DNA of 38,818 bases from a virus, in IMG/VR virus record IMGVR_UViG_3300045999_012341, positions 1-38,818 of that record. One strand, given 5' to 3'. The position numbers and the translations under genes are program-made. A model generated the notes under the pieces. It saw only the letters and a program-made list of their open reading frames with translations. It was not told the DNA's origin and made no database searches. This document shows, piece after piece, positions 3,212-38,400 of the stretch (within the stretch, counting starts at the first letter, position 1; each line of letters starts with the position of its first letter).

Positions 3212-3282
3212 GCGGATGTGATGTAATGGTAGCCTGGAACCTTGCCAAGGTTCTCGCGAGGGTTCGATTCCCTCTATCCGCT
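3212..3282 (+). tRNA. tRNA-Gly(GCC)
   Basis: Acceptor GCGGATG/TATCCGC, anticodon stem GAACC/GGTTC around TTGCCAA, T-arm GAGGG-TTCGATT-CCCTC. The CCA end is not encoded. Confidence 0.93.
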
Positions 3283-3294
3283 CATTTTTACAGT

Positions 3295-3348
3295 CCCGGG
3301 ACAATCCCTCTCCTGCTAATGCAGTGACGGATCCCGGGTAAGTTTTTT
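3295..3348 (+). terminator. Long hairpin followed by T6 inside the tRNA block
   Basis: CCCGGGA (3295-3301) pairs with TCCCGGG (3332-3338). Inner TCC/GGA and CTGC/GCAG helices make a rod-like stem, and TTTTTT follows at 3343-3348. It could be an intrinsic terminator or a processing hairpin between tRNA-Gly and tRNA-Thr. It has no T-arm, so it is not an ordinary tRNA. Confidence 0.55.
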
Positions 3349-3351
3349 AAA

Positions 3352-3427
3352 GCCCTTGTAGCTCAGTTGGTAGAGCACCTCACTTGTAATGAGGATGTCA
3401 TCGGTTCGAATCCGATCGGGGGCTCCA
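3352..3427 (+). tRNA. tRNA-Thr(TGT)
   Basis: Acceptor GCCCTTG/CGGGGGC (two G-T pairs), anticodon loop with TGT, canonical T-loop TTCGAAT. The 3' CCA is encoded. Confidence 0.93.
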
Positions 3428-3437
3428 TTTTTAAAAT

Positions 3438-3512
3438 GCACCAGAAGCTAAACGGCTAGGCATTGGTCTGCAAAACCTTTATTAGTCAGTTCGACTCTGA
3501 CCTGGTGCTCCA
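3438..3512 (+). tRNA. tRNA-Cys(GCA)
   Basis: Acceptor GCACCAG/CTGGTGC, loop CTGCAAA (anticodon GCA), T-arm GTCAG-TTCGACT-CTGAC, CCA encoded. The anticodon stem is weak (two T-T oppositions) and position 8 is A, so function is slightly less certain. Confidence 0.82.
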
Positions 3513-3741
3513 TTTTAAACGGACCCGGCTGCAGCAAATAAACCAGGTCCAGGTAAGATAGTCGTTGCCTGTTAGTGTGTTAAGGCTACTTACTGACGCT
3601 GGACGAGTTAGGCTGCGTAAAGCATTGACTCCAAGCATTTAGATTAACACAGGCTAGACGGATGATTCCGGGCTCCATGCCCGGTCTCGTTGAGGAAGGG
3701 ACAATTCCTAGGACAAAACCCTTCAATACTACAATTTTTAA
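3513..3741 (+). ncRNA. Second unexplained structured segment in the tRNA block
   Basis: This 229-nt gap has no supportable ORF or tRNA but holds several pairings. GGACC 3521-3525 can pair with GGTCC 3546-3550. GTCCAG 3547-3552 can pair instead with CTGGAC 3599-3604, so the two are mutually exclusive. GTTAGT 3571-3576 pairs with ACTGAC 3592-3597, and GTGTTAA 3577-3583 with TTAACAC 3644-3650. A strong hairpin, CCGGGC/GCCCGG, is at 3668-3684. It may be an alternate-folding RNA or degenerate tRNA material. No RNA family is recognised. Confidence 0.35.
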
Positions 3742-3814
3742 CGGGATGTAGCCCAACGGTTAAGGCGCCTGCTTTGGGAGCAGGAGATTGCGAGTTCGAG
3801 CCCCGCCATCCCGA
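3742..3814 (+). tRNA. tRNA-Pro(TGG)
   Basis: Acceptor CGGGATG/CATCCCG, anticodon stem CCTGC/GCAGG around TTTGGGA (TGG), discriminator A. CCA is not encoded. Confidence 0.93.
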
Positions 3815-3823
3815 TACTTTAAT

Positions 3824-3896
3824 GTTGCTCGTGGTGTAACGGTTAGCATTACAGATTGTGATTCTGTTAGAGAGGGTTCGAGTCCCTCCGAGCAAC
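3824..3896 (+). tRNA. tRNA-His(GTG)
   Basis: Anticodon stem ACAGA/TCTGT around TTGTGAT (GTG). The extra G(-1) at 3824 faces C73 at 3896, the known histidine identity pair, with acceptor TTGCTCG/CGAGCAA. Confidence 0.94.
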
Positions 3897-3920
3897 CTGT
3901 TTTGGGTTAATCTTATAAGC

Positions 3921-3990
3921 AGGGAGCCGCCCTACTCGCCCCCTGAAGGGTGGGGGAGATTAGTCCTGAGACGTCGCGGGTAAACGTCTC
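3921..3990 (+). ncRNA. Three consecutive hairpins between tRNA-His and tRNA-Ala
   Basis: AGGG/CCCT (3921-3933), a G/C-rich stem CTC-CCCC/GGGG-GAG (3935-3958), and a perfect 7-bp hairpin GAGACGT/ACGTCTC (3968-3990). There is no T-run after the last stem, so these look more like processing or spacer structures than a terminator. The function is unknown. Confidence 0.35.
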
Positions 3991-3998
3991 ACAATTTC

Positions 3999-4070
3999 GG
4001 GGAATTAGTTAAGTGGCTATAACTCCTGATTTGCATTCAGGTGTCACCGGTTCGACTCCGGTATTCTCCA
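3999..4070 (+). tRNA. tRNA-Ala(TGC)
   Basis: Acceptor GGGGAAT/ATTCTCC, anticodon stem CCTGA/TCAGG around TTTGCAT (TGC), T-loop TTCGACT, discriminator A. Confidence 0.92.
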
Positions 4071-4077
4071 AACTTTA

Positions 4078-4159
4078 GCTCTAGTGGCGAAATTGGCAGA
4101 CGCGACAGACTTAGGATCTGTTGCCGTAAGGCATGGGGGTTCGAGTCCCTCCTGGAGCA
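4078..4159 (+). tRNA. tRNA-Leu(TAG)
   Basis: A normal class II leucine tRNA: acceptor GCTCTAG/CTGGAGC, anticodon stem ACAGA/TCTGT around CTTAGGA (TAG), long variable arm TGCCGTAAGGCA, discriminator A. Confidence 0.93.
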
Positions 4160-4166
4160 TATTTTA

Positions 4167-4251
4167 GGAGCGGTGGCTGAGCGGTCTAAAGCGGTCGATT
4201 ACTAATCGACTGAACAGTGATGTTCCGTGGGTTCGAATCCTACTCGCTCCG
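4167..4251 (+). tRNA. tRNA-Ser(ACT), unusual A34 anticodon
   Basis: Class II tRNA with G73 (serine discriminator), acceptor GGAGCGG/TCGCTCC, and anticodon stem GTCGA/TCGAC around TTACTAA. The anticodon is ACT, where bacteria normally use GCT. A34 would read AGU, and AGC only if deaminated to inosine. Confidence 0.88.
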
Positions 4252-4268
4252 TTCTTTAAAAATTTTAT

Positions 4269-4359
4269 GGGCAGATGGCTGAGCTGGTCTAAGGCGTCCG
4301 ACTTGAAATCGGAAGTGGGGGAAACTTCACCGTGGGTTCGAATCCTACTCTGCCCGCCA
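4269..4359 (+). tRNA. tRNA-Ser(TGA)
   Basis: Class II, acceptor GGGCAGA/TCTGCCC, anticodon stem TCCGA/TCGGA around CTTGAAA (TGA), long variable arm, G73 and encoded CCA. Confidence 0.93.
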
Positions 4360-4363
4360 TTTT

Positions 4364-4371
4364 GATAAATA
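4364..4371 (+). promoter_or_regulatory. T4-like late motif (GATAAATA)
   Basis: TAAATA stands 5 nt before the ATG of the DUF5661 gene, the spacing that would put transcription start on the start codon. Confidence 0.5.
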
Positions 4372-4376
4372 ACTAT

Positions 4377-4607
4377 ATGACATTTAAACAATACTTTACG
4401 GAACAAAGTTTATCTAAAGGTATGTCTTTAGAAGATATTGCTAAAAAGCATAATGTAGAAATTTCTGAACTACAAAAAGAGCTCGAAAAAGGTTCTAAGG
4501 TTGAGCATGAACATACAGATTCAGAAGAACATGCTAAAAGAGTAGCTATGGATCATTTAGTTGAAGATCCAAAATACTATACAAAACTTTCAAAAGCTGG
4601 TCTTTAA
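4377..4607 (+). CDS. DUF5661 family protein with candidate capsid-targeting N-terminus
   Basis: A 76-residue protein. Residues about 18-38 (LEDIAKKHNVEISELQKEL) look helix-turn-helix-like. Residues about 44-71 carry the DUF5661 signature EHT.S.EHAKRVAMDHLVEDPKYYTKL, which I recognise from phage and bacterial proteins of unknown function. The N-terminus MTFKQYFTE|Q resembles the T4 capsid-targeting peptide (family example MKTYQEFIAE), which the prohead protease cuts after the Glu. That would make this a head-internal protein; this is inference. ATG 4377 is chosen over an in-frame start at 4332, because 4332 lies inside tRNA-Ser and 4377 follows a late motif. It stands alone between tRNA genes. 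Confidence 0.75.
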   Translation: MTFKQYFTEQSLSKGMSLEDIAKKHNVEISELQKELEKGSKVEHEHTDSEEHAKRVAMDHLVEDPKYYTKLSKAGL

Positions 4608-4608
4608 T

Positions 4609-4681
4609 TGCGGGATAGAATTCCGGTGAGTTCAGGTGTCTCATAAGCATCTCTAGGTGGGTTCGACCCCCACTCCCGCTA
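4609..4681 (+). tRNA. tRNA-Met(CAT) with initiator-like features
   Basis: Loop CTCATAA (CAT), T-stem GTGGG/CCCAC. The acceptor pairs GCGGGA/TCCCGC, but the first position is a T1-T72 mismatch. The D-stem GAAT/GTTC gives A11-T24. Bacterial initiator tRNAs have an unpaired 1-72 and A11-U24. The three G-C pairs next to the anticodon loop found in initiators are missing (T29-A41, G30-C40, T31-G39). Confidence 0.85.
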
Positions 4682-4691
4682 TTTTTTTAAC

Positions 4692-4766
4692 ACGTTGGTG
4701 GCAGACAAGCAATGCAGCAGTCTCCAAAACTGCCTTATGTGAGAGCGTTACTCACCCAACGTGCCA
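4692..4766 (+). tRNA. tRNA-Trp(CCA)
   Basis: Acceptor ACGTTGG/CCAACGT, anticodon stem GCAGT/ACTGC around CTCCAAA (CCA), G73 and encoded CCA. The T-loop is AGCGTTA, so T54 and A58 are swapped to A54 and T58. Confidence 0.87.
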
Positions 4767-4770
4767 TTTT

Positions 4771-4844
4771 GCGGTGGTAGTATAATAGTAGTACAGTAGT
4801 CTTCCAAACTTCGGGCCTCGGAGCGTAACCGTGTCACCGCACCA
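4771..4844 (+). tRNA. tRNA-Gly(TCC)
   Basis: Acceptor GCGGTGG/TCACCGC, loop CTTCCAA (TCC), encoded CCA. The T-loop AGCGTAA again has A54/T58. The anticodon stem and T-stem each have one T-T opposition. Confidence 0.82.
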
Positions 4845-4848
4845 TTTA

Positions 4849-4922
4849 GGAGTTGTAGCTCAGTTGGTTAGAGCATCTGACTGTCACTTAGAAGGTCGCG
4901 GGTTCGAGCCCCGTCAACTCCG
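4849..4922 (+). tRNA. tRNA-Asp(GTC)
   Basis: Acceptor GGAGTTG/CAACTCC, anticodon stem TCTGA/TTAGA around CTGTCAC (GTC), T-loop TTCGAGC, G73. Confidence 0.93.
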
Positions 4923-4927
4923 TATTC

Positions 4928-5000
4928 AGAGGTGTAGCTCAATCGGCAGAGCATCGCTTTGATAAGGCGGGGGTTGTTGGTTCAAGTCCAACCATCTCTA
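4928..5000 (+). tRNA. tRNA-Ile(GAT)
   Basis: Acceptor AGAGGTG/CATCTCT, anticodon stem TCGCT/GGCGG around TTGATAA (GAT), T-loop TTCAAGT, A73. Confidence 0.92.
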
Positions 5001-5004
5001 TTTT

Positions 5005-5077
5005 GGATCCTTAGTGAAACGGATTATCACTTAACGCTACGGACGTTACATTCTAGGTTCGAATCCTGGAGGATCCA
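5005..5077 (+). tRNA. tRNA-Arg(ACG)
   Basis: Acceptor GGATCCT/AGGATCC, anticodon stem TAACG/CGTTA around CTACGGA (ACG), T-loop TTCGAAT, A73. Its 3' end overlaps the late motif of the next gene. Confidence 0.93.
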
Positions 5078-5083
5078 TAAATA
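5076..5083 (+). promoter_or_regulatory. T4-like late motif (CATAAATA)
   Basis: It overlaps the last two bases of tRNA-Arg and stands 5 nt before the ATG at 5089. Confidence 0.5.
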
Positions 5084-5088
5084 ATATT

Positions 5089-5424
5089 ATGCAACAATAC
5101 GTATATAGAGCGTTAGTAAAGGAAGTTTATGATGGAGACACGATAACTGTTGATGTCGATTTAGGTTTTGATATATGGTTAAAAGATCAAAAAATACGGC
5201 TCGCAGGTATTAACGCCCCAGAAATTCGCGGTGAAAATAAACTACAAGGTTTGAAAACACGAGATCGTTTAATACAATTAATTCTTAATAAAGAAGTTAC
5301 AATAGAAACAATTAAAGATAAAAAAGAAAAATTTGGTCGTTGGTTAGGAAAAGTTTATTTTAATTCTGAGCTAATAAATGAAAAATTGGTATTAGAAAAT
5401 TTAGCTCAAAAATATTTAGAATAA
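5089..5424 (+). CDS. Staphylococcal-nuclease-like (SNase) protein
   Basis: A 111-residue single-domain protein of the thermonuclease family, which cuts DNA and RNA with Ca2+. The active-site pattern is intact: VYDGDT (D15, D17) on the first strand, IRLAGINAPE (R37 and E45) and GRWLGKV (R84), corresponding to the Asp, Arg-Glu and Arg of staphylococcal nuclease. There is no signal peptide, so it acts in the cytoplasm or virion rather than outside the cell. It lies directly behind the tRNA block under a late-type motif, with no Shine-Dalgarno sequence. It is shorter than the secreted enzyme but complete for the domain. Its role could be nucleic-acid degradation or packaging-related; the sequence does not say which. 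Confidence 0.85.
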   Translation: MQQYVYRALVKEVYDGDTITVDVDLGFDIWLKDQKIRLAGINAPEIRGENKLQGLKTRDRLIQLILNKEVTIETIKDKKEKFGRWLGKVYFNSELINEKLVLENLAQKYLE

Positions 5425-5435
5425 CCTGTTTTTTA

Positions 5436-5464
5436 TTGATTTTATAAAAAACCTACACTATAAT
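5436..5464 (+). promoter_or_regulatory. Sigma70-type promoter of the bilin reductase/glycan operon
   Basis: TTGATT (5436-5441), 17-nt spacer, TATAAT (5459-5464), then exactly 6 nt to the GTG start at 5471. Transcription is expected to begin on the start codon. It is the only clear promoter before the six-gene operon that ends at 11220. Confidence 0.8.
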
Positions 5465-5470
5465 TGTAGT

Positions 5471-6127
5471 GTGAATTCTCATGTACAAATTAAAAAATAT
5501 TTTTTCGAAATTGCCAAAATATTTGAACATTACTTTGATGTATACGAAGATAAGCAATTAACTTTTCAAAAATCAGAACACGAATGGTTAAATTATTTTT
5601 TTAAATCTCCTATATTTCGCCATATACATTTAGAGTATTATAAAACAGATAAAATCTGTGCTCTTCATTCAACAATCTTACCAAACCCGTTAGTAGATTT
5701 TCCGATTTATGGGTTTGATATGATAGCGTTAGGAGATAAAATAACAGGCTTGTTTTTTGACTTTACACCTACACTTACCAATTATAAAGATTTTGAAAAT
5801 CTTTTATTAATTTTAAAAGAAAATGTAAAATCACCGGTAAGACCATTACCAGTATGGGCTACCTTCTTTAGTAAAAATTTCATCTGTATATCACCTCTTG
5901 AAGAAGAGTTAAATAGTTTAATTGACACTATTAAAACTTATACAGAGAGTTATTTACAAAATAGTTCTCTAGTAAAAGAAAAATATCTTAAAAACATCGA
6001 AATCCAAAATACTTATTGTCAAGGGCAAAAAAGGAACGATAAAACATTTAAAGCTCTTACAGCTGAAGTAGGAAAAGAAAACGCTCAAAAGTTTTTTGAT
6101 GAATATTTGTTTCCGGAAATTGTGTAA
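5471..6127 (+). CDS. Ferredoxin-dependent bilin reductase (PcyA/PebS/PcyX-type)
   Basis: A 218-residue protein that fits the FDBR family, which reduces biliverdin to phycobilins with electrons from ferredoxin. Family marks in order: ALHSTILP (residues 64-71), FPIYGFDMI (77-85), LFFDFTP (94-100), LPVWATFFSKNF (126-137) and YCQGQKRNDKTFKAL...GKENA..FF.EYLF (182-214). H66 and D83 are 17 residues apart, as are His88 and Asp105 of PcyA. PebS carries Asn at the first position, so this protein has a PcyA/PcyX-like pair. D190 is a candidate for the third catalytic Asp. No heme oxygenase is in the window, so the substrate must come from the host or from elsewhere in the phage. The start is GTG at predicted +1. 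The stop overlaps the next start (TAATG). Confidence 0.88.
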   Translation: MNSHVQIKKYFFEIAKIFEHYFDVYEDKQLTFQKSEHEWLNYFFKSPIFRHIHLEYYKTDKICALHSTILPNPLVDFPIYGFDMIALGDKITGLFFDFTPTLTNYKDFENLLLILKENVKSPVRPLPVWATFFSKNFICISPLEEELNSLIDTIKTYTESYLQNSSLVKEKYLKNIEIQNTYCQGQKRNDKTFKALTAEVGKENAQKFFDEYLFPEIV

Positions 6128-6741
6128 TGAATATAACTGCTGTTACCATCGGTATAAATGAGCCATATTTAACATATGCCCGTAAAGGGTGTGAGCAGAT
6201 TGAGAAACTTTTAAATATAGAGAGTAGAATAATAACTGAGGACTTCTTACACTTAGGGGTTGGTGCGCACGAACAAGAAAAAATATGGAGTTTGAAGTTT
6301 AATATATTTGATATTTTTCCAGATATAGAAACAGTAATGTATTTTGATGTTGATTGGCGACCGTTGCAAAAATTTAATATTTTAGATTATTGCCCTGATA
6401 TTGATAAAATATATTTTACACCTGATCGATCAGAATATTGGTTTGTGCAAGAGCTTGAAAAAAAATACGATCTTTTATCTGGTACATATGTTAATGCAGG
6501 CTGGTTTGTTATAAACAAGCAATACAAAGATCTATTAGATTATTGTAAACATAATCTTGTTTTTTTTGATCGAAGTTTCTATGGGGATCAGTGTGTTATT
6601 AATCAAGTTTTTAAAAACAGAATAACTTTAGCTGATAGGTGTTTGAATGTCTTAGATATGAACGCATTCCCTTACAACAAAATTTTAGGTTTGCATAATA
6701 GCACTGAAAACTATAAATTTTACAATAATATAAATGAATAA
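6127..6741 (+). CDS. Glycosyltransferase with DXD motif (GT8/GT77-like fold)
   Basis: A 204-residue GT-A type protein. The start (MNITAVTIGINEPYLTYA) is the beta strand and helix that open nucleotide-sugar transferases. D74-V-D76 (MYFDVDW) is the metal-binding DXD motif, and GDQCVINQVF near residue 153 matches the acceptor-side GDQ..N block of GT8-like enzymes. There is no membrane anchor. It would transfer a sugar from a nucleotide-sugar donor; neither donor nor acceptor can be read. It is translationally coupled to the bilin reductase (TAATG) and overlaps the next gene by 8 nt, so the proteins are made together. Base composition is very AT-rich, like the rest of the operon. Confidence 0.75.
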   Translation: MNITAVTIGINEPYLTYARKGCEQIEKLLNIESRIITEDFLHLGVGAHEQEKIWSLKFNIFDIFPDIETVMYFDVDWRPLQKFNILDYCPDIDKIYFTPDRSEYWFVQELEKKYDLLSGTYVNAGWFVINKQYKDLLDYCKHNLVFFDRSFYGDQCVINQVFKNRITLADRCLNVLDMNAFPYNKILGLHNSTENYKFYNNINE

Positions 6742-11221: not shown

Positions 11222-11296
11222 GCGCGCGTAGCTTAGCGGTAGAGCAGGTCCTTTACACGGACAAGGTCGGGAGTTCAATCCTCTCCGCGCGTACCA
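11222..11296 (+). tRNA. tRNA-Val(TAC)
   Basis: Acceptor GCGCGCG/CGCGCGT, loop TTTACAC (TAC), T-arm GGGAG-TTCAATC-CTCTC, A73 and encoded CCA. It starts one base after the SemiSWEET stop, so it is probably co-transcribed with that operon. Confidence 0.92.
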
Positions 11297-12863: not shown

Positions 12864-12900
12864 CCCCTTGGTAGCTTCGGTTGCCAAGGGGTTCGCTTTT
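12864..12900 (+). terminator. Intrinsic terminator between convergent genes
   Basis: CCCCTTGG (12864-12871) pairs with CCAAGGGG (12884-12891), and TTTT follows at 12897. It stops the DUF932 transcript just before the 3' end of the converging amylase gene. The minus strand lacks a T-run, so it is mainly one-directional. Confidence 0.85.
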
Positions 12901-15900
12901 ACGGATTGTACTGAATAGTTCTAGTAGCTGATACTTTTCTACCTGTATTGTTAGTTGCTATTATATGAACTTTATAAGTTCCTTTAGGAAGGGTTGGTGG
13001 TAGTACGAACCTTAGATGATGGGAATCCCATCCTGCAAACCAGCTTATACCATCTCTGCGTGTATGGTACAATATATAACGAATGTCTTCTGGAGCGTTT
13101 TCAATTTCTATTACAACTCTCTGACTTAGTAAGCTTCTATTCATTTGCCAATCTGCAAATGAAGCTGAGACCCAAGCATTTAAAAACCATCCTGCTCTTA
13201 CCTCTGTAGTAGCTGTTGAACTTGGCCAGAGCCATCCAACAGCTTGTGCTGGAGCTTTTGTACTATAAGTTTTTGTTACTAAGCCATATTTACCTGGTGC
13301 TATTGATTTGATATCTTCCTTCTTTGGTGATGCTGTTTCTCTTAACACCAAGTTAATTGTACCCGTTCCCGATGCAGGAATATTAATATACTTAAATCTC
13401 CATTCCTTTGTCATTCCATTTCCAGAGTCATTAATTGCTCTTACGGTGGGAATTACACCCCACGAAGGTGTACCATCAGCTTTATTACCGTTACCGTAAT
13501 TTCTACCAACATTTACGTCGTCGTTAAGAGGATCAGAATCAACAATATTATAAAGAACTTCTTTTACTGTATGATCTGTATGCACTACAAACTCATAATC
13601 AAATGAGGTTAACTCTTGATTATCAGAAGGAAACTTAACTGCACCTTCTGGGTTCTTTGCATCATAATAAAAGACTTGAGTGAAGGTATTATAAAGAGAT
13701 GCCTGTCCTGGTCTCTTAAGATATGCTCTTGCTCTTAATACATGAAAGCCTTCTGTGAGGCCTTTTCTCTTTATTGAGTAATCATTGTGAACATAATATT
13801 CAGTTTCAGTAGCATTAAAATTAGCAATTTGAAATTCTGTTTCCATCTTTCTCTTTAGTGATACATTATAAGGGCTATTAGGAAATACAGAATCAGCTTT
13901 GGTGTTAAGAGCTGAGATCTTATATTTTAAATGTCCTCCACTATAAGGAATATTGGCTACCCACCAATCACTTCTTCTACCTGTAGAGTCAGGTGCACCA
14001 TTTTTAAGCCATCTGGCCTGCACTACACCAGTAGTACCTTTCGGTGAACCAACTGAACCTTCTGGGAACTCATTTAAATCGGTTGTATAATAAACATAAG
14101 CTCTATCTACATCAAATTGATAACCTGTCTTAAAGTAAACCTGATAGGTTCTTAAAATAGGTCTTGCCTGTCTTATAGTGGTACCCTCATATAAGTCTGT
14201 AGGGTTATGATGAACAAATTGAGCTGTTTGTAAAGAATCATTCATACCGTTACCATTATTTGTTGTCAATATAATAGCGTTGTTAGTACCTCTATTAACA
14301 ATATAAGTTTCAGCTCCTGGAGAACCAATAACATTTCTTCTTGTATCTATAGAGCCAAACTTCTCCTTACCTCTATGAACAAATTGCATGAACTCGTAAC
14401 CCAAAAATGTATCGGTTGTTAAGCCCGGAGGTGCATCTCTTTTATCTCCTCCTTGAGGTCCAAGACCTACAAATGAATTTACATCCCAGCCTCCATCTAA
14501 CTTTAATCTAACCATCTCAGCTGAACCATCAGCATTAACAATAAAAGATAAACTAGATCCGTTAGTAACATAAGGAATAGCTACATCATAAGAAAAGTCT
14601 GTTGTATTGGTATCTGGTAGTCCGTAAGGGTTAAATGCAGGATCTCCATTTGGTCCATCCTTTCTTGATACTTTAATATAATCTACTGCCTTACCATTTT
14701 GAAGGATGGTAATAGGGGAATAACCATCCCATACTGAAGGTGTCTCGGGTGTACGCCAAGAGAAGAAATAATAGCCCCCTGGAGGAACAATTACACTGCC
14801 AAGTTCCCAAGCATATTTGTAAAAGCCTGTTTGACCTGAGCCATTAGGTCCTGTAGCATATTGATAGAGGAAAGCATTAGAAGGGAAAGAAGATTTAACC
14901 CGAGCTTCCCCTCTACCAGCAGCAAAGTTATCATTGATCATAACAATACCGGTAACACCATCCCAATCACCCATACTCTGATTTTCTCTTTTATCTATTC
15001 TTTCATAGACAACTAAATCAGCATCTGACCAAATACCCTTTTGATACCCTCTAGCAAAATGGTTATGAATATAAACCAGGTTAGGTATCCTCGGGTCATT
15101 CCATTGACCGAGGAATGCTGTATTAGCTATTCTAGGAAATTCTCCACCAGAACCTTGTAGAACCCCAGCATGATAATTACCATCTGTATAGATAAGGGGC
15201 AAGCCGACTCTGGTGAAGTAAAATGCATGCTGTAAATGTCTATGAGTTGACCAAGCAATGTCATGAGATTGAGCATGAGTTACAGAAACTTCTGGGGAAA
15301 AGCCGCCAAAGCCTGGCTGATCTAATCCCCATAAACCGTTTGATGGATTACCTAATCTTCCATCTAAAGTATTCTTCAAAGGATTGTCAATGAGTCTCAT
15401 ACCTGCATTGATATAAGGCGTATAAGGAGGTGGTTCACCTAAATGCTCACCAAATATCATAGCATCATCTCTACCCTTCTCAGTATCAAATACTGTATCT
15501 CTATGATTAGCATCTGAGTAACCTCTAGTTATATTAAACTGTCTTTGAATCTGTCCTGTATAACCATAATCAGAAAAGTCCTTATCATTACCATAATTGG
15601 CTCCAAAGAAATCAGCACGAGCATGCTTAACAGCATCTAATCTAAACCCATCAACATAGGTGGTGGCGGTTAACCAACGAACTGATCTATAAAGATAGTC
15701 TTGTACAAACTCTGAATAAGAATTTGAATTAGCTAAAATGTACTCTTTGGTCAATCCATTATCAGGTCCAAAACCAACATAGTTACCCTTTGCATCAAAG
15801 CAATAATATTCTGGATTATCTGCATCTCTAACTATTTTTGGCTTCTTTGTCCACCAACCTTCGAATGGCCCGTGATTATGATTCCATTCGCCGGGCTCTT

Positions 15901-16438
15901 GTGCGATGTCAATTAAATCTGATAAGCCTAAATTATAAACCTGCCATTCATCACCCCAATTGCGGGTATTATCCCATTTGCGGTAAAATGTTAATCCGTT
16001 AGTTACAACTGTTCTGAGGTGAAAATCTTCTGGTACTAAACCGGGATATAAGTCTTTAGGCGACTGTGCATTAAAGAGAGGGGTATCAAAGCCTCTATGA
16101 TTCATTATGTTATCAAAATAGACTCTAATACCAAAGCGATGTGCTGTTTCGATAAGATCTACCAGCTCAGTATATGTTCCGTACTTTGTAGCAAATCCTC
16201 CTTTTTGATCTTTGGAGCCTAAATCATAAGGATCAAAGAGATCATAACCCACAGAGAATTGAGAGCCCGCTTTTGTTGGAGGTGGCACCCAAATTGACTC
16301 ATAGCCAACTTCAGCTAGTTCGGGCATCTTTTGTGTTATCTCGGCCCACGAAGTATTAAAGTACTGAATCATGGGCTCTGCTTTTGCGGAGGTTAAAAGC
16401 AGCAGCCATATAAGGAACGCTAAAAAGTAATACCTCAT
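12899..16438 (-). CDS. Secreted GH13 alpha-amylase, multidomain
   Basis: A 1179-residue protein with a clear Sec signal peptide (hydrophobic WLLLL core, cut after TSAKA, residue 20). Residues about 22-520 are a GH13 (beta/alpha)8 barrel with all catalytic regions: VYFDNIMNH (106-114), GFRLDAVKH (264-272, nucleophile D268), IFGEH (328-332, acid/base E331) and SHD (391-393, transition-state D393). GH13 enzymes cut alpha-1,4-glucans such as starch or glycogen. The remaining 650 residues look like several beta-sandwich modules, probably carbohydrate-binding. It is on the opposite strand between the DUF932 gene and the tail fibre. A GGGAGG sequence lies 14 nt before the ATG. A phage gene with an export signal suggests release into the periplasm or medium, or a host gene captured by the phage. 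Confidence 0.88.
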   Translation of the reverse strand: MRYYFLAFLIWLLLLTSAKAEPMIQYFNTSWAEITQKMPELAEVGYESIWVPPPTKAGSQFSVGYDLFDPYDLGSKDQKGGFATKYGTYTELVDLIETAHRFGIRVYFDNIMNHRGFDTPLFNAQSPKDLYPGLVPEDFHLRTVVTNGLTFYRKWDNTRNWGDEWQVYNLGLSDLIDIAQEPGEWNHNHGPFEGWWTKKPKIVRDADNPEYYCFDAKGNYVGFGPDNGLTKEYILANSNSYSEFVQDYLYRSVRWLTATTYVDGFRLDAVKHARADFFGANYGNDKDFSDYGYTGQIQRQFNITRGYSDANHRDTVFDTEKGRDDAMIFGEHLGEPPPYTPYINAGMRLIDNPLKNTLDGRLGNPSNGLWGLDQPGFGGFSPEVSVTHAQSHDIAWSTHRHLQHAFYFTRVGLPLIYTDGNYHAGVLQGSGGEFPRIANTAFLGQWNDPRIPNLVYIHNHFARGYQKGIWSDADLVVYERIDKRENQSMGDWDGVTGIVMINDNFAAGRGEARVKSSFPSNAFLYQYATGPNGSGQTGFYKYAWELGSVIVPPGGYYFFSWRTPETPSVWDGYSPITILQNGKAVDYIKVSRKDGPNGDPAFNPYGLPDTNTTDFSYDVAIPYVTNGSSLSFIVNADGSAEMVRLKLDGGWDVNSFVGLGPQGGDKRDAPPGLTTDTFLGYEFMQFVHRGKEKFGSIDTRRNVIGSPGAETYIVNRGTNNAIILTTNNGNGMNDSLQTAQFVHHNPTDLYEGTTIRQARPILRTYQVYFKTGYQFDVDRAYVYYTTDLNEFPEGSVGSPKGTTGVVQARWLKNGAPDSTGRRSDWWVANIPYSGGHLKYKISALNTKADSVFPNSPYNVSLKRKMETEFQIANFNATETEYYVHNDYSIKRKGLTEGFHVLRARAYLKRPGQASLYNTFTQVFYYDAKNPEGAVKFPSDNQELTSFDYEFVVHTDHTVKEVLYNIVDSDPLNDDVNVGRNYGNGNKADGTPSWGVIPTVRAINDSGNGMTKEWRFKYINIPASGTGTINLVLRETASPKKEDIKSIAPGKYGLVTKTYSTKAPAQAVGWLWPSSTATTEVRAGWFLNAWVSASFADWQMNRSLLSQRVVIEIENAPEDIRYILYHTRRDGISWFAGWDSHHLRFVLPPTLPKGTYKVHIIATNNTGRKVSATRTIQYNP

Positions 16439-16535: not shown

Positions 16536-19500
16536 GTGTCCGACGAGATTATTAATTTTTATAAAAAGGTTTCCGATACTGAAGAACCTCAAGAACCTAT
16601 TGAAGAGCAAAAAGAAACACCTGCTCCGGTACTTCCCCAGCCCGATGAACCCTTTGATAAGTTTCTTTTTGAGTTAGCTGAAAAACTCAAAAACGAAAAA
16701 GTCATTACTGAAAAGCAGCAAGAGTCATTTGAAGAGCAAATTAAACAACCGGTTTTAGAAGAAGATAAAAATTCTGACGACCCATTTAAGAAGTTTATCG
16801 GGTCCTTTGCAAACATCTTAAAAGAGGATGAATTAGTTAATAGAGAAGAGAATATTAAAGAAGCTACTATTAGTTTCATTAACAAATTAAAAGAACAACC
16901 CGAAGAGCCTTTTATTATTGATGATCAACCTTTAGTAAGAACCAGAAAGAAATATTTACCACCTAAAATAAAACAAAAAGTTCAAAAGCTTCCTCAAGTT
17001 GTTAAAAAAGAAGAGCCTGTTGTTGCTGAACAAGCTGACGAACCTGTTAAAGAAGAGCCTAAAGACGAAAACAAATACGTCCAAGAACTCAAAACAGCTG
17101 ATAAGTCTAACAAAAAAATACCTGAAAAAATTAAAAGTGTTTCAGACATTAAATCTATTGTTGAAAAACAAGTTGCTGAGATTTTATCCCGTTACCCGAA
17201 TTTAGGTTTCACAGGAGGGGGTGGCGGTACTAATGCTGTTCAGTACGCTAAAGGCGGTACTATGGACGGAGATCTCAATGTCACTGGTAAATTTTTATCA
17301 GGTGGTGTTGATATTTCTACATTATTTGGAACTGGCGGCGGAGGAGAAGCAGACAGATTAGTCTCCGGTTCAGCATCTCTTATTTTAAACCCTAATGGTA
17401 CTTTAGATTTTCCTAATGATACAATTCGACCTCCGGATGAAACGGTATTAACTCTAGAATCTGAAAATCCTTCTTTATCTGCTTATACCAGAATTGCTTT
17501 ATCCCCTTATGCATTTTTTGCTTATGATAGCGAAGGTAATTCCATAACTTTTGATGAAGTTGATAATGCTATTGTCTTAACCTCTCAAGACGAACATGAA
17601 TGGACATTTAATAAACAAGGAGTTTTAGTAGGTCCAGGCAACAAACTTACTGTTACATCTCTTAGTTCTTTAGGTAAAATTTTATCCGGTGATAGAGATT
17701 TAGCTGATATCTTTTTAACTGCTGAAACTGATTCACAAACTTTATCGTTTAATAGTAACAGTGAAGTTTTATCTATTTCTAACGGTAATAGTGTTGCACT
17801 ATCTTCTATTAGAATTGCAGCTAATAATTTTACATCAAATAACTTTTTATCTTTATCAGGGGGTTTAGTTCAAGGCCCGGTTCAGATTAATAATAATTTA
17901 ACCGTATTTGGTAACCTTACTGCTTCGGGTACTACTACTTTTGCCAATACTGTTTTTACTACTACGAGCTCTTTAAGTGTAGTTCACTTAGGATCAGGCC
18001 CAGCGTTGTATGTTGGTAATTACGGAAATGATCATATAGCTACATTCGTTGATCTACAAAACGGATTAGAGATGATGCACATTGGTGGGTTGAGCAGCTC
18101 GTTTCCTAATGTCGGCATTAAGACAGGTCAGCCTAATAAAGATTTTACAGTACAAGGTGAAATTAGTGCATCTGGTACAATCTGGAACGGTGAAGGAAAT
18201 TCTATTCAATGGAATAAAGCATATAATATAGGTACGGCGTATCAAGCTGTTTCGTCTACATTTTTAACTGCTGAAACTGATTCACAAACCTTAACATTTA
18301 CAGAATCTTCTGCAGAGCTTTCAATATCAAATGGCAATATAGTAAGTCTCTCTTCAATTAATACCACCTTTGCAACCAATTCAGGAAAGTATGAAAGCGT
18401 ATACACAACCGTACAGGTTAATTCCGGGTCTTGGAATAGAAATTACATTTACGTATCAACTAATACAAATCTCTCTTCAAATTTTAAATACGCAATTGAT
18501 ACCACATCTGGGACTTTAACAGCTACATTACCTCCCGCACCGCAAACAGGAGATGAAATTGAGATATTTGATATTCTGGGAACATGGGGTGTTAATAACT
18601 TAGTAGTTAATAATAACACCCATTACATTGAACAACAGAATGATAACTTATTATGTAATGTAAGATTTGGTCTTGTTAAATTAATTTACACAAATAATAA
18701 TACAGGCTGGAGAATTATACCGTTACCTTTACATGATAAACCATCAATTGGTCTTCCTAATATATCTATTGGTATTAATACTCTATCAAGCTATATACCA
18801 CTCACGGTCGGCTTAACCGGTATCAATAATCTAGATGCTTCTATTGCACCGGTTGATTCCTGGTCCTGGGATCTATCTGGTAATTCTAGTATTGATAGTA
18901 CATCTCGTATTACTACTGTAACTTACAATACGCCAGGAGTATACGCTATTACTCTAACCGGTAGCAATAGTGTGGGTATTGACACTGCTTCAATAGTGGT
19001 TACAGCTGTTAATATACTACCACCAAGTGTGTCAATTAGTATTAGTAGCTTGTCTGGTATAATACCGTTTACAGTTAACTTGACCGGTATCAATAATCTC
19101 AATCCTATTGCTTCACCAATTAGTGCTTGGTACTGGGATCTGTCTGGTGACGGTCAGGTCGATAGTCAGTCTCAAATTACTTCATACACTTACGAAACTT
19201 CTGGCACCTACACTATCACGCTTTCAGGTAATAATAGTGCAGGGATAGGAACGGCCTTTGCAACCGTAACAGCATTAGCTCCTGCAATTCCTGCAGTTCC
19301 GACTGAGGGTCTTCTTGTTAGATTTAACGCTGATTCAGGCATTAGTGAGTCTGGTGGTAACATTACTTCTTGGACCGATCAACAGAATGGAGTAGTGGCC
19401 ACTGCATTTAATAATCCAACCTTATTAACAAATGAGTTTAATGGCCGTAATGCTGTTTCATTTAACGGGTCTAATACCTATTTTACGTTTACATTTCCTG

Positions 19501-19955
19501 CCCCTATAAGCAATGGTACACCTCGTACTTTTATAGTTATTGGTAGATATAATAACCCTACTACCACAGCCCAAAAAGGTTACTTAAACTCAACATCAGG
19601 AGATCTATGTTACGTCTTTAAAAATGCAAATGATGATCGAGCTTACTTTTATACCGAGGGTAGACAAATAGCTGGACCCACAGCTGGCTCTTCAAGCAGT
19701 CTTGCGAATTATCATGTTCAAACTGTTGTGCACAACGGTGTACCCAATTCTAACTTCATTCGTATTAATGGGGTAACCTCTACCGGAGTATCGTATGGTG
19801 TAATGGACAATTTACCTCAATTAACTAATTTAGTTATTGGTGGTAGAGGTACACCTAATGAAATATTACCCGGTCAAATAGTTGAAGTATTAATTTATAA
19901 TAGAGAATTAACATCTCAAGAAATTGAGCAAATTGAAACTTACGCTAATGTTTAA
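16536..19955 (+). CDS. Tail fibre/adhesin with two PKD domains and a LamG-like C-terminus
   Basis: A 1139-residue protein starting at GTG. Residues 1-200 are charged, Pro/Glu/Lys-rich and probably coiled-coil, with a repeated F..F..ELAEKL / F..FIGSFANIL segment. A Gly run (about 225) leads to DGDLNVTGKFLSGGVDISTLF, typical of long fibres of T4-like phages. The 11-residue segment FLTAETDSQTL occurs twice (about 394 and 575). Two PKD-type Ig modules follow (about 741-825 and 828-910, each with SWDLSGN or WYWDLSGDG and a Y.T.G.Y.ITL.G.N strand). The last 215 residues are a concanavalin/LamG-like lectin domain. It most likely recognises host surface glycans. The start at 16536 has no Shine-Dalgarno sequence; TTAAATA lies 12 nt upstream. 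Confidence 0.85.
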   Translation: MSDEIINFYKKVSDTEEPQEPIEEQKETPAPVLPQPDEPFDKFLFELAEKLKNEKVITEKQQESFEEQIKQPVLEEDKNSDDPFKKFIGSFANILKEDELVNREENIKEATISFINKLKEQPEEPFIIDDQPLVRTRKKYLPPKIKQKVQKLPQVVKKEEPVVAEQADEPVKEEPKDENKYVQELKTADKSNKKIPEKIKSVSDIKSIVEKQVAEILSRYPNLGFTGGGGGTNAVQYAKGGTMDGDLNVTGKFLSGGVDISTLFGTGGGGEADRLVSGSASLILNPNGTLDFPNDTIRPPDETVLTLESENPSLSAYTRIALSPYAFFAYDSEGNSITFDEVDNAIVLTSQDEHEWTFNKQGVLVGPGNKLTVTSLSSLGKILSGDRDLADIFLTAETDSQTLSFNSNSEVLSISNGNSVALSSIRIAANNFTSNNFLSLSGGLVQGPVQINNNLTVFGNLTASGTTTFANTVFTTTSSLSVVHLGSGPALYVGNYGNDHIATFVDLQNGLEMMHIGGLSSSFPNVGIKTGQPNKDFTVQGEISASGTIWNGEGNSIQWNKAYNIGTAYQAVSSTFLTAETDSQTLTFTESSAELSISNGNIVSLSSINTTFATNSGKYESVYTTVQVNSGSWNRNYIYVSTNTNLSSNFKYAIDTTSGTLTATLPPAPQTGDEIEIFDILGTWGVNNLVVNNNTHYIEQQNDNLLCNVRFGLVKLIYTNNNTGWRIIPLPLHDKPSIGLPNISIGINTLSSYIPLTVGLTGINNLDASIAPVDSWSWDLSGNSSIDSTSRITTVTYNTPGVYAITLTGSNSVGIDTASIVVTAVNILPPSVSISISSLSGIIPFTVNLTGINNLNPIASPISAWYWDLSGDGQVDSQSQITSYTYETSGTYTITLSGNNSAGIGTAFATVTALAPAIPAVPTEGLLVRFNADSGISESGGNITSWTDQQNGVVATAFNNPTLLTNEFNGRNAVSFNGSNTYFTFTFPAPISNGTPRTFIVIGRYNNPTTTAQKGYLNSTSGDLCYVFKNANDDRAYFYTEGRQIAGPTAGSSSSLANYHVQTVVHNGVPNSNFIRINGVTSTGVSYGVMDNLPQLTNLVIGGRGTPNEILPGQIVEVLIYNRELTSQEIEQIETYANV

Positions 19956-25960: not shown

Positions 25961-26806
25961 GTGCATATTAACACATTAAGAGCACAAAAAATCTATGATG
26001 CAAATCCAAGGTATTGCAAACTTTGTAATACCAAATTTAGTCATAGACAAATTCAAGCTAATTACAGAAAAAAGTTTTGTAATAGTTCTTGTGCAGCTTC
26101 TTATAATAATATTGGTAGAGCACGAACACAAGATTCTAAACTTAAAACATCTACTACTCTAAAAAATAGACCTACAGTAACAACAAAATGTATAGATTGC
26201 AATAGTCAAATATTTGTTAAAAAAATCTTAAAAGAAGGTAATTTATGTAATATTTGTTATAGTAATAGATCTAAAAATATTTGGTGTCCAAAGGGTAAAA
26301 AATATAGCTGTATAAAGTGTAATAAAGCTATTTTAAAAAATAAAACAAATCTTTGTAAGGGGTGCTGGATAATATCAGAAGACTTTGAAAAACAGAGAGG
26401 TAATTATTTAAAAACGTTTCAAAAGGGTTATTATTTTTGCAAGAAAGAAAATAAAGATGTTTACTTAAACAGTAGTTTAGAATTTGCTTTTGCTGAATAT
26501 TGCGATAAAAACAATATTGAATGGTCAAAGCCAAGGCATTTAACATATACATTAAATGATAAGCAGCACTATTATTTTCCAGATTTTTATTTAAATAAGC
26601 ATAATCTTATCATTGAAATAAAAGGCTATTTTTGGAAAAATGATCTTAAAAAGATGCAAGCTGTATTAAGAGATAATAAAGATAAAAATATTAAAATAAT
26701 ACAGCAAAAAGAACTTAAAAAATTAATTAACGGAGAAATAAATTTTAATTATTGCGGGATGGGGGAATTGGTAGACCCACCGGGCTTTGAACCCGGCGCT
26801 GAATAA
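25961..26806 (+). CDS. PD-(D/E)XK endonuclease with zinc-ribbon N-terminus (homing-type)
   Basis: A protein of 281 residues from GTG 25961. The N-terminal half has several zinc-binding knuckles (YCKLCNTKF, FCNSSCAASY, CIDCNSQ, NLCNICY, SCIKCN, CKGCW). The C-terminal part is a PD-(D/E)XK nuclease: SSLEFAFAEYC, then FPDFYL and IIEIKGY, that is E...PD...E-x-K. It is related to the gene at 27519-28265. It lies between tRNA-Tyr and tRNA-Gln, and its last 54 nt, including the stop, are inside tRNA-Gln. Such free-standing genes usually behave as homing endonucleases. A longer reading starts at 25907 inside tRNA-Tyr; 25961 follows a CATAAATA motif by 7 nt, so it is preferred. Confidence 0.8.
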   Translation: MHINTLRAQKIYDANPRYCKLCNTKFSHRQIQANYRKKFCNSSCAASYNNIGRARTQDSKLKTSTTLKNRPTVTTKCIDCNSQIFVKKILKEGNLCNICYSNRSKNIWCPKGKKYSCIKCNKAILKNKTNLCKGCWIISEDFEKQRGNYLKTFQKGYYFCKKENKDVYLNSSLEFAFAEYCDKNNIEWSKPRHLTYTLNDKQHYYFPDFYLNKHNLIIEIKGYFWKNDLKKMQAVLRDNKDKNIKIIQQKELKKLINGEINFNYCGMGELVDPPGFEPGAE

Positions 26807-26839
26807 GCATTAAACGTTCAAGTCGTTTTCCCGCAGCCA
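26753..26839 (+). tRNA. tRNA-Gln(TTG) with long variable arm
   Basis: Acceptor TGCGGGA/TCCCGCA with U1-A72 and G73, both known glutamine identity features. Anticodon stem CCGGG/CCCGG around CTTTGAA (TTG), encoded CCA. The variable region is long (GCT-GAATA-AGC hairpin), which is not normal for Gln. It contains the stop codon of the upstream endonuclease gene. Confidence 0.85.
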
Positions 26840-26847
26840 GTTTTTAG

Positions 26848-26876
26848 TTGCATGTATTAAAGATTTCCGGTATATT
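26848..26876 (+). promoter_or_regulatory. Sigma70-type promoter of the small membrane protein
   Basis: TTGCAT (26848-26853), 17-nt spacer, TATATT (26871-26876), 7 nt to the ATG. The spacer contains AAGATTTCC ending 2 nt before the -10, close to the AAGGTTCC element of the promoters at 415 and 634. Confidence 0.65.
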
Positions 26877-26883
26877 ATGCATC

Positions 26884-27069
26884 ATGAAATTAGATACAGC
26901 TATTCTCTTCCTTCTTGCTTTAGGTATTATTGCAGGAAGTATTGTCTCAGAACTTCAACATCGACGAATTAAAGATTTGCAAACACAAGTTGATGAGCTT
27001 ACTATTGTGGTTAGTCAAAGATTTTTACCGGCAATGATTTTTGATAAGCATAATTTAACTGTCAGGTAA
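26884..27069 (+). CDS. Small single-span membrane protein with coiled-coil (61 aa)
   Basis: A 61-residue protein: one hydrophobic helix (residues 6-22, AILFLLALGIIAGSIVS) and then a charged heptad-like region (ELQHRRIKDLQTQVDELTIVV). This layout fits small phage membrane proteins such as Rz-like, holin-helper or exclusion proteins. No cut site or lipobox follows the helix, so it is likely an N-in membrane anchor. It has its own promoter between two tRNA groups. ATG 26884 is used rather than an upstream start at 26848, which lies on the -35 box. Confidence 0.6.
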   Translation: MKLDTAILFLLALGIIAGSIVSELQHRRIKDLQTQVDELTIVVSQRFLPAMIFDKHNLTVR

Positions 27070-27109
27070 TATGGAAGACTTTGACGGTTTAGGACTTTAA
27101 TGATTTTCA

Positions 27110-27200
27110 GCTGGGTTAGTGTAACTGGAAGCACCGACAGTTTTATAAACTGTGTGCCCTAGATGAGGGCCGAGCATGGGTTCAATTCCCATACCCAGCA
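27110..27200 (+). tRNA. tRNA with anticodon TAT (Ile) and class II variable arm
   Basis: Acceptor GCTGGGT/ACCCAGC, anticodon stem ACAGT/ACTGT around TTTATAA (TAT, reads AUA), T-arm ATGGG-TTCAATT-CCCAT, A73. The variable arm is about 22 nt with a CCCT/AGGG stem. Ile tRNAs are normally class I; long arms belong to Leu, Ser and Tyr. T6 follows at once. Confidence 0.85.
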
Positions 27201-27225
27201 TTTTTTAGTTCTTTTAAAACTTAAC

Positions 27226-27302
27226 GGGGTGTTAGCTTAGCGTTCTAAAGCAGTCGGCTCATAATCGATTGACCCTGGGTTAGAATCCCAGACGCCCCAC
27301 CA
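27226..27302 (+). tRNA. tRNA-Met(CAT) (elongator, or Ile2 if lysidine-modified)
   Basis: Acceptor GGGGTGT/ACGCCCC, loop CTCATAA (CAT), T-loop TTAGAAT (C56 replaced by A), D-stem with C11-G24 (elongator type), encoded CCA. CAT alone cannot separate Met from Ile2. Confidence 0.86.
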
Positions 27303-27309
27303 CTTTAAA

Positions 27310-27384
27310 TCCTAGGTAGCACAGCGGTAGTGCAATCGGCTGTTAACCGATGGGTCGCTGGTTCGAATCCAGCCCTAGGAGCCA
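27310..27384 (+). tRNA. tRNA-Asn(GTT)
   Basis: Acceptor TCCTAGG/CCTAGGA, anticodon stem ATCGG/CCGAT around CTGTTAA (GTT), T-loop TTCGAAT, G73 and encoded CCA. Confidence 0.93.
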
Positions 27385-27388
27385 TTTT

Positions 27389-27470
27389 GCACCCGTATCT
27401 CATCGGTCTTCTAAACCGACGTTAATCGAGTAACTGGAGTATGCACGTTCGAGTCGTGCCGGGTGCGCCA
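27389..27470 (+). tRNA. tRNA-Arg(TCT), D-armless with long variable region
   Basis: Acceptor GCACCCG/CGGGTGC, perfect anticodon stem TCGGT/ACCGA around CTTCTAA (TCT), T-arm GCACG-TTCGAGT-CGTGC, G73 and encoded CCA. Only TATCTCA (7 nt) lies between the acceptor and anticodon stems, so there is no D-arm. The variable region is 23 nt with a GTTA/TAAC helix. Confidence 0.8.
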
Positions 27471-27483
27471 TAAATATTTTAAA

Positions 27484-27558
27484 GCTCCCGTGGTGTAACT
27501 GGTTAGCACATCAGGTTTTCATCCTGAAGGTTTGCGGGTTCGAGCCCCGCCGGGAGTG
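27484..27558 (+). tRNA. tRNA-Glu(TTC)
   Basis: Acceptor GCTCCCG/CGGGAGT (G1-T72), anticodon stem TCAGG/CCTGA around TTTTCAT (TTC), T-arm GCGGG-TTCGAGC-CCCGC, G73. The stop codon of the antisense endonuclease gene overlaps its anticodon loop. Confidence 0.92.
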
Positions 27559-37641: not shown

Positions 37642-38400
37642 TTATACTTTAAGGGCTTTATTCCAGATTAGCAATTGTAGTCTTGGAGAAAAATTAACAT
37701 GCATAGCTTTTGCATACTCTGCTACTGCAGGCGCATTCTGTACATGCTCTTCTCTCGATCCACAACAAGGCATGAACCAAATTCGATGAAGCGGTACATT
37801 AATGCCTTCATCGTCATTAACATATTTCCGCCAGATCTCTTCAATATCTTTATCAGAGTTAATAACAAATTTAAAACCTGAACCATTTGTTACATGCCAT
37901 TGAAGTGCTTCTGGCTTATAGGTCTTCTCTTCTGGATCTCCATTTGAGATAAGTTTAGGAGATGTAGTAAAGGTAGCTCTGAATTCATTGCGCCATCTCT
38001 CAGAAGGAATCAAAGTAGCATTAGTTTCAAAATCAATACGTGATACAAAGTTATACCTCTCTTTAAAGGCTTCGATAAATTTAAGAAGCTGCTTTTCTTG
38101 AATGATGGGCTCACCACCTGTTAGTTTTAAAATTGCACCATTACGAAGATGTTCGATATAGTTATTATCTTCCATCATCTGAAATACTTCAGCAAATGTT
38201 TTTTTGTTCTTAACAGACCAAGATACAAACGAATCACAGCCATTAGGTGAATCTGGTGACGCAAATCCAATACAAGTTAAGTTACACATTGACATGCGCA
38301 TAAACACAGAAGGCTGACCGACAAATTCACCTTCACCCTCAACTGTGTAAAATACTAAGTCGTCTGACAAGAACAATGTTTCTTTATTAATATCAATCAT
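37642..38400 (-). CDS. queE: QueE-like 7-carboxy-7-deazaguanine synthase (radical SAM)
   Basis: A 252-residue radical SAM protein. It fits QueE, which turns carboxy-tetrahydropterin (CPH4) into 7-carboxy-7-deazaguanine, a precursor of queuosine and phage 7-deazaguanine DNA bases. YTVEGEGEFVGQPSVFMR (residues 18-35) is the family start. The iron-sulfur Cys are C39, C43 and C55, so the spacing is C-x3-C-x11-C with an insert before the third Cys. LTGGEP (93-98) is the SAM-binding GGEP motif and DFETNAT follows. GGAGG stands 7 nt before the ATG, a real Shine-Dalgarno site. It is next to QueD (38585-38818), the preceding step of the pathway. Confidence 0.88.
   Translation of the reverse strand: MIDINKETLFLSDDLVFYTVEGEGEFVGQPSVFMRMSMCNLTCIGFASPDSPNGCDSFVSWSVKNKKTFAEVFQMMEDNNYIEHLRNGAILKLTGGEPIIQEKQLLKFIEAFKERYNFVSRIDFETNATLIPSERWRNEFRATFTTSPKLISNGDPEEKTYKPEALQWHVTNGSGFKFVINSDKDIEEIWRKYVNDDEGINVPLHRIWFMPCCGSREEHVQNAPAVAEYAKAMHVNFSPRLQLLIWNKALKV

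Follow-up and report, generated by a model that had tools for sequence, protein, structure and literature searches.

The window, by which we mean the whole 38,818-nucleotide stretch analysed here (IMG/VR record IMGVR_UViG_3300045999_012341, G000), is an incomplete 38.8-kb virus fragment that encodes a ferredoxin-dependent bilin reductase (FDBR) between a tRNA array and a group of glycosyltransferase-like genes (Table 1). FDBRs convert biliverdin, a heme breakdown product, into a light-absorbing pigment. The GTG start falls in the alignment column where relatives begin with MNSQ or MNSH, which backs this start codon.

Table 1. Features of the FDBR locus, in coordinates of the window
Feature	Position	Strand	Basis
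12 tRNA genes upstream of FDBR, order largely kept in the sister record L225	3212..5078	+	tRNA listing, L225 comparison
Staphylococcal-nuclease-like protein at the heme oxygenase site of relatives	5089..5424	+	PF00565 E 1.1e-9
FDBR, predicted PcyA-type, 218 aa, GTG start	5471..6127	+	PF05996, PDB PcyA match, structure model
Codon for E55, equivalent to PcyA Glu76 (Asp in PcyX)	5633..5635	+	Alignments
Codon for H66, equivalent to PcyA His88	5666..5668	+	Alignments
Codon for D83, equivalent to PcyA Asp105	5717..5719	+	Alignments
Codon for D190, in the column of PcyA Asp220, not conserved among relatives	6038..6040	+	Alignments
Glycosyltransferase-8-like ORF overlapping the FDBR stop codon	6127..6741	+	PF01501 E 1.3e-4, below cut-off
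329-aa ORF, conserved downstream in L225	6734..7723	+	phmmer E 2.9e-117 to L225
Large glycosyltransferase/methyltransferase-like protein with a conserved counterpart in L225	7710..10505	+	PF04724 E 6.6e-15

The first-pass annotation had read this frame as an FDBR along its entire length and proposed a profile search as a check. That search gave a significant match to PF05996 (82 bits, the cut-off being 31; E 6.6e-23) covering most of the domain, and a second one to PHROG 7278 (E 6.6e-20). Among PDB sequences, PcyA (1.1e-15) and PcyX (1.6e-12) were matched, and PebS only marginally (0.11). The top NCBI FDBR model was PRK02816 (PcyA) with 93.5 bits, which is below its equivalog cut-off of 206 bits, and identity to characterised PcyA is 24-28%. 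The window protein is thus an FDBR, and its activity would be the ferredoxin-dependent reduction of biliverdin.

The fold agrees with this assignment. An AlphaFold model built from an alignment of 74 FDBRs reached a mean pLDDT of 95.1 and a pTM of 0.91, with helices at both ends and strands in mid-chain, as in the alpha-beta-alpha fold of FDBRs. Foldseek and VIA-align identified PcyA, including PcyA-biliverdin complexes, as the best structural match, and the superposition suggested by the first-pass annotation fitted over the whole length (Z 25.3, 217 residues, 2.6 A). PebB and PebA followed with Z 22-23, PcyX with 19.9 and PebS with about 18, so that FDBR structures overall scored Z 17-25 with nearly full-length coverage; the lower value of PcyX is partly explained by the fact that 5owg resolves only 181 residues.

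We numbered active-site equivalents according to Synechocystis PcyA. The proposed correspondence of H66 and D83 with His88 and Asp105 was borne out by the PDB alignment, and both positions are invariant in the 74 aligned FDBRs and in an extended set of 86 rows. The cyanophage PebS of P-SSM2 does carry Asn at the first position of this pair, as had been stated, with the motif YNTILYP against LHCVMFP in PcyA. More importantly, the alignment completes the PcyA set Glu76-His88-Asp105 with E55, a residue absent from the earlier reading that decides between the PcyA and PcyX classes: at position 55, PcyA and the window protein have Glu, and PcyX, including 5owg and the FDBR of pelagiphage Mosig, has Asp. 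By its residues, the active site is accordingly predicted to be PcyA-type rather than PcyX-type, and the side chains of H66, D83 and E55 would face the bilin pocket. D190, put forward earlier as a third candidate catalytic residue, aligns with PcyA Asp220; however, many relatives have Gln, Glu, Pro, Thr or Lys there. Since L225, the closest of them, has Gln and the majority of PcyX-like proteins have Pro, a catalytic role of D190 seems unconvincing on the alignments.

Glu76 is PcyA-specific and required for 18-vinyl reduction (PMC10151467), and the PcyA of phage CB_2, which lacks the PcyX-specific Asp55, makes phycocyanobilin (PCB) (PMC11480375). On these two grounds, PCB is our best prediction for the product of the window enzyme.

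A single alignment-based scan of IMG/VR returned at least 590 encoded FDBR relatives confirmed by tblastn, and 27 GenBank phage records contain an FDBR. The view that few phage FDBRs are known therefore has to be given up. A freshwater phage PcyA making PCB (PMC11480375) and a hemO-FDBR pair in a pelagiphage were already known. Hundreds of aquatic phages encode FDBRs, and phage bilin reductases are not rare. The close clade of the window protein was found by narrower IMG/VR scans, and no plasmid-borne relative was found.

In a first tree the placement of PebS was unreliable owing to its long branch, and the tree was therefore rebuilt without PebA, PebB and PebS under a mixture model. In the rebuilt tree, which answers the earlier call for a phylogeny, the window protein falls in a phage group together with PcyX, split from cyanobacterial and cyanophage PcyA (100/99), and hence does not belong to the latter lineage. 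Within the phage group it forms a clade (99/98) with L002, L090, L091, L092, L093, L094 and L096, to which L225, L226, L232 and L233 were added later; this clade branches outside the PcyX-like branch (100/99). The window protein and L225 are sisters (95/90). Rockwell and colleagues (PMC10151467) use the term AX clade for alphaproteobacterial PcyA plus phage PcyX, and the phage group most likely corresponds to it, in a tree built without alphaproteobacterial PcyA and pre-PcyA sequences; a contig scan with the NDKT pattern gave almost only cyanobacteria. In the close pairs L002/L090, L092/L093 and L094/L096, dN/dS is about 0.06-0.08, and the clade genes are therefore under purifying selection.

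The remainder of the window is that of a T4-type phage. Tail fibre and collar genes lie at 28-30 kb, and the 30.5-38.8 kb region, with genes for a primase, an AAA ATPase, a nuclease, a thymidylate-kinase-like and a QueE-like protein, is collinear with G004, the record carrying L092. The primase resembles those of T4-like phages at low identity, the core genes have only distant T4-like and mixed matches, and megablast of 24.8 kb of the window against GenBank phages gave no match. The phage had been described as being without cyanobacterial markers, which holds: the contig is not cyanophage-like, and psbA was found in none of 13 records, i.e., the window and 12 related ones. The QueE-like radical SAM protein (37642-38400, minus strand) is conserved in the related records G004, G007 and G001, and a QueC-like ORF adjoins the heme oxygenase gene of L002; together they hint at deazaguanine DNA modification. 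Separately, a 1179-aa protein (12899-16438, minus strand) with an alpha-amylase-like match (E 4.2e-14) and no PHROG match adjoins a tail-like protein with PKD and laminin-G domains (16536-19955), and is possibly a glycan-degrading structural protein.

Around the FDBR gene, the closest counterpart of the window is L225, an IMG/VR record of 75 kb whose FDBR is 60% identical. The two share an HNH gene, the tRNA array with its order almost unchanged, the FDBR, the 329-aa ORF, the glycosyltransferase protein, a PQ-loop protein and a tRNA-Val; they differ in that the staphylococcal-nuclease-like gene is not listed between tRNA array and FDBR in L225. The 38.8-kb window contains 18 tRNA genes, with two main clusters (3212-5078, 11222-11296, 26753-27558). 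An inverted repeat, ACACTA-TAATTG-TAGTGT (5456-5473), contains TATAAT and reaches into the GTG start; its presence may reflect an operator, a leaderless promoter or chance. A promoter-like site at 5436-5464 was given no weight, as such matches are not commoner than in shuffled sequences.

The absence of a heme oxygenase (HO) from the window, noticed at first reading, was confirmed: PF01126 had no match anywhere in the 38.8 kb, and an unfiltered search of all six frames with a phage-HO profile gave nothing better than E 2. This absence is more telling than could be seen then, as nearly all relatives have HO adjacent. Of 98 FDBR loci, some of them redundant, 86 have an HO gene nearby, usually overlapping the FDBR start; the loci without one nearby are the window, L032/L034/L049/L054, L033, L078, L085 and four cyanophages. 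Within the clade, HO is present in L002, L090-L096, L226, L232 and L233, with its usual site directly upstream of the FDBR. A search along the whole 75 kb of L225 found none, and a stand-alone FDBR is therefore a trait common to the sub-lineage of the window and L225, produced either by loss of HO or by its relocation outside both fragments. As the window is an incomplete fragment, its HO gene may lie outside it. This sub-lineage probably uses host biliverdin or has an oxygenase encoded elsewhere. AlaS, as a partner gene, was found only in the L028 and L070 records and in no record of the window clade, the window included.

Phage PcyA, phage hemO-FDBR cassettes and broken cassettes all have precedents (PMC11480375). 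Among the closest is vPcyA of the freshwater phage CB_2 (PMC11480375), which, compared by description only, resembles the window enzyme in lacking Asp55, in having no hemO in an intact cassette and in its non-cyanobacterial setting, and which makes PCB. CB_2, however, has a 527-kb genome in which hemO and alaS are still present at other sites, whereas the window has neither HO nor alaS, and L225 has no HO. The cyanobacterial PcyA proteins of Synechocystis and Nostoc share the equivalents of Glu76, His88, Asp105 and Asp220 and give the top structural match, yet sit on another tree branch, are only about 24-28% identical and have a longer N-terminus. PebS of P-SSM2 is likewise a phage-borne FDBR of common fold; it differs in having no Glu76 equivalent and in belonging to the PebA/PebB branch, and with His66 in place of Asn and a tree position outside that branch, the window protein is not of the PebS type. 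PcyX (EBK42635, 5owg) and the Mosig FDBR share the phage group, the His-Asp pair and the fold, and differ in Asp at 55, Pro at 190, the HO adjacent in Mosig and phycoerythrobilin as the published product of PcyX. The Mosig FDBR (L004, 7908-8591) and the metagenomic PcyX in 5owg are almost identical in sequence (E 1.8e-138), which gives this PcyX a cultured, isolated pelagiphage; the annotated neighbours of the Mosig gene include a ferrochelatase and several 2OG-Fe(II) oxygenase genes. The 164-kb record L028, which also carries AlaS, has two adjacent FDBR genes (5270-5986 and 5983-6651) after one heme oxygenase, the first Asp-type (PcyX-like) and the second Glu-type.

From the directly established family, fold, residue correspondence, tree position and missing adjacent HO, we infer the activity, the product, the source of biliverdin and the benefit to the phage. 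The reading that we consider probable is an active PcyA-type FDBR, expressed during infection as a phage auxiliary metabolic enzyme that converts biliverdin to PCB. Biliverdin IXalpha would occupy the pocket that the alpha-beta-alpha fold forms and receive single electrons from a host (or phage) ferredoxin, with D83 and H66 acting as the proton relay in the manner of Asp105 and His88. E55, in the role of Glu76, would permit 18-vinyl reduction and thereby the four-electron product phycocyanobilin. With the partner heme oxygenase gone from the cassette, biliverdin would be supplied by the host or by a phage oxygenase encoded elsewhere.

A PcyX-type enzyme, which, like its phage sister group, would take biliverdin through 15,16-dihydrobiliverdin to phycoerythrobilin, appears unlikely. 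The common phage group apart from cyanobacterial PcyA (100/99) and the pelagiphage-type PcyX as the characterised member with a structure speak for it, but the window has Glu instead of Asp at the PcyX-specific position 55 and Asp instead of Pro at position 190, its clade lies outside the PcyX group, it lacks the adjacent HO gene, and the phage enzyme CB_2 without Asp55 made PCB (PMC11480375). We give similarly little credence to a divergent reductase tuned to non-cyanobacterial hosts that makes something other than PCB or carries the reaction only part of the way (e.g., to 18-ethyl-biliverdin or another two-electron product). It would fit the low identity to every assayed enzyme, the drift at the Glu76 position within the clade (Gln in L093, L094, L096 and L233) and the D, E, K, Q, S and N found there across phages; however, the window and its nearest relatives L225, L226, L091 and L002 keep Glu, His and Asp.

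That the gene is a relict, an FDBR decaying without substrate after HO loss, is improbable: HO is missing from both the window and L225, and L225 has lost D190, yet the frame is open and full-length with all clade-invariant residues kept, the fold is confident, and the gene is retained in two records despite a 40% residue difference. Nothing was found in favour of a cellular gene or an assembly artefact, which we regard as extremely improbable; the independent record L225 likewise has its FDBR in this position behind the tRNA array, and phage tail, collar and primase genes lie on the window contig. Returning to the PcyA-type reading, a more specific and rather speculative version holds that the window and L225 phages dropped HO and turn host biliverdin into PCB in a non-cyanobacterial host, possibly with an effect on host phytochrome signalling or on heme/biliverdin turnover and not on light harvesting.

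Taken together, the new elements are a T4-like sub-lineage with a stand-alone reductase after a tRNA array, and an answer to the PcyA/PcyX question that, as a prediction, favours PcyA chemistry. Phage bilin metabolism thus reaches a T4-like lineage that lacks the usual HO and whose reductase is predicted to have a complete PcyA-type active site. If the enzyme is active, some phages would need only the last step, acting on host biliverdin; such reliance, if true, bears on why non-cyanobacterial phages make bilins.

Of the 86 phage-dominated FDBR rows, 52 have D at the Glu76 position, 19 have E, 8 K, 4 Q, 2 S and 1 N. Lys occurs, for example, in L022, L031, L042 and L062, Gln in L013, L093, L094 and L096, and Ser in L097 and L099; we know of no assays of the Lys, Gln or Ser types. 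The natural Glu/Gln/Asp/Lys series offers a means to probe product control, and its Gln type mirrors the engineered E76Q PcyA mutant (structure 3i95).
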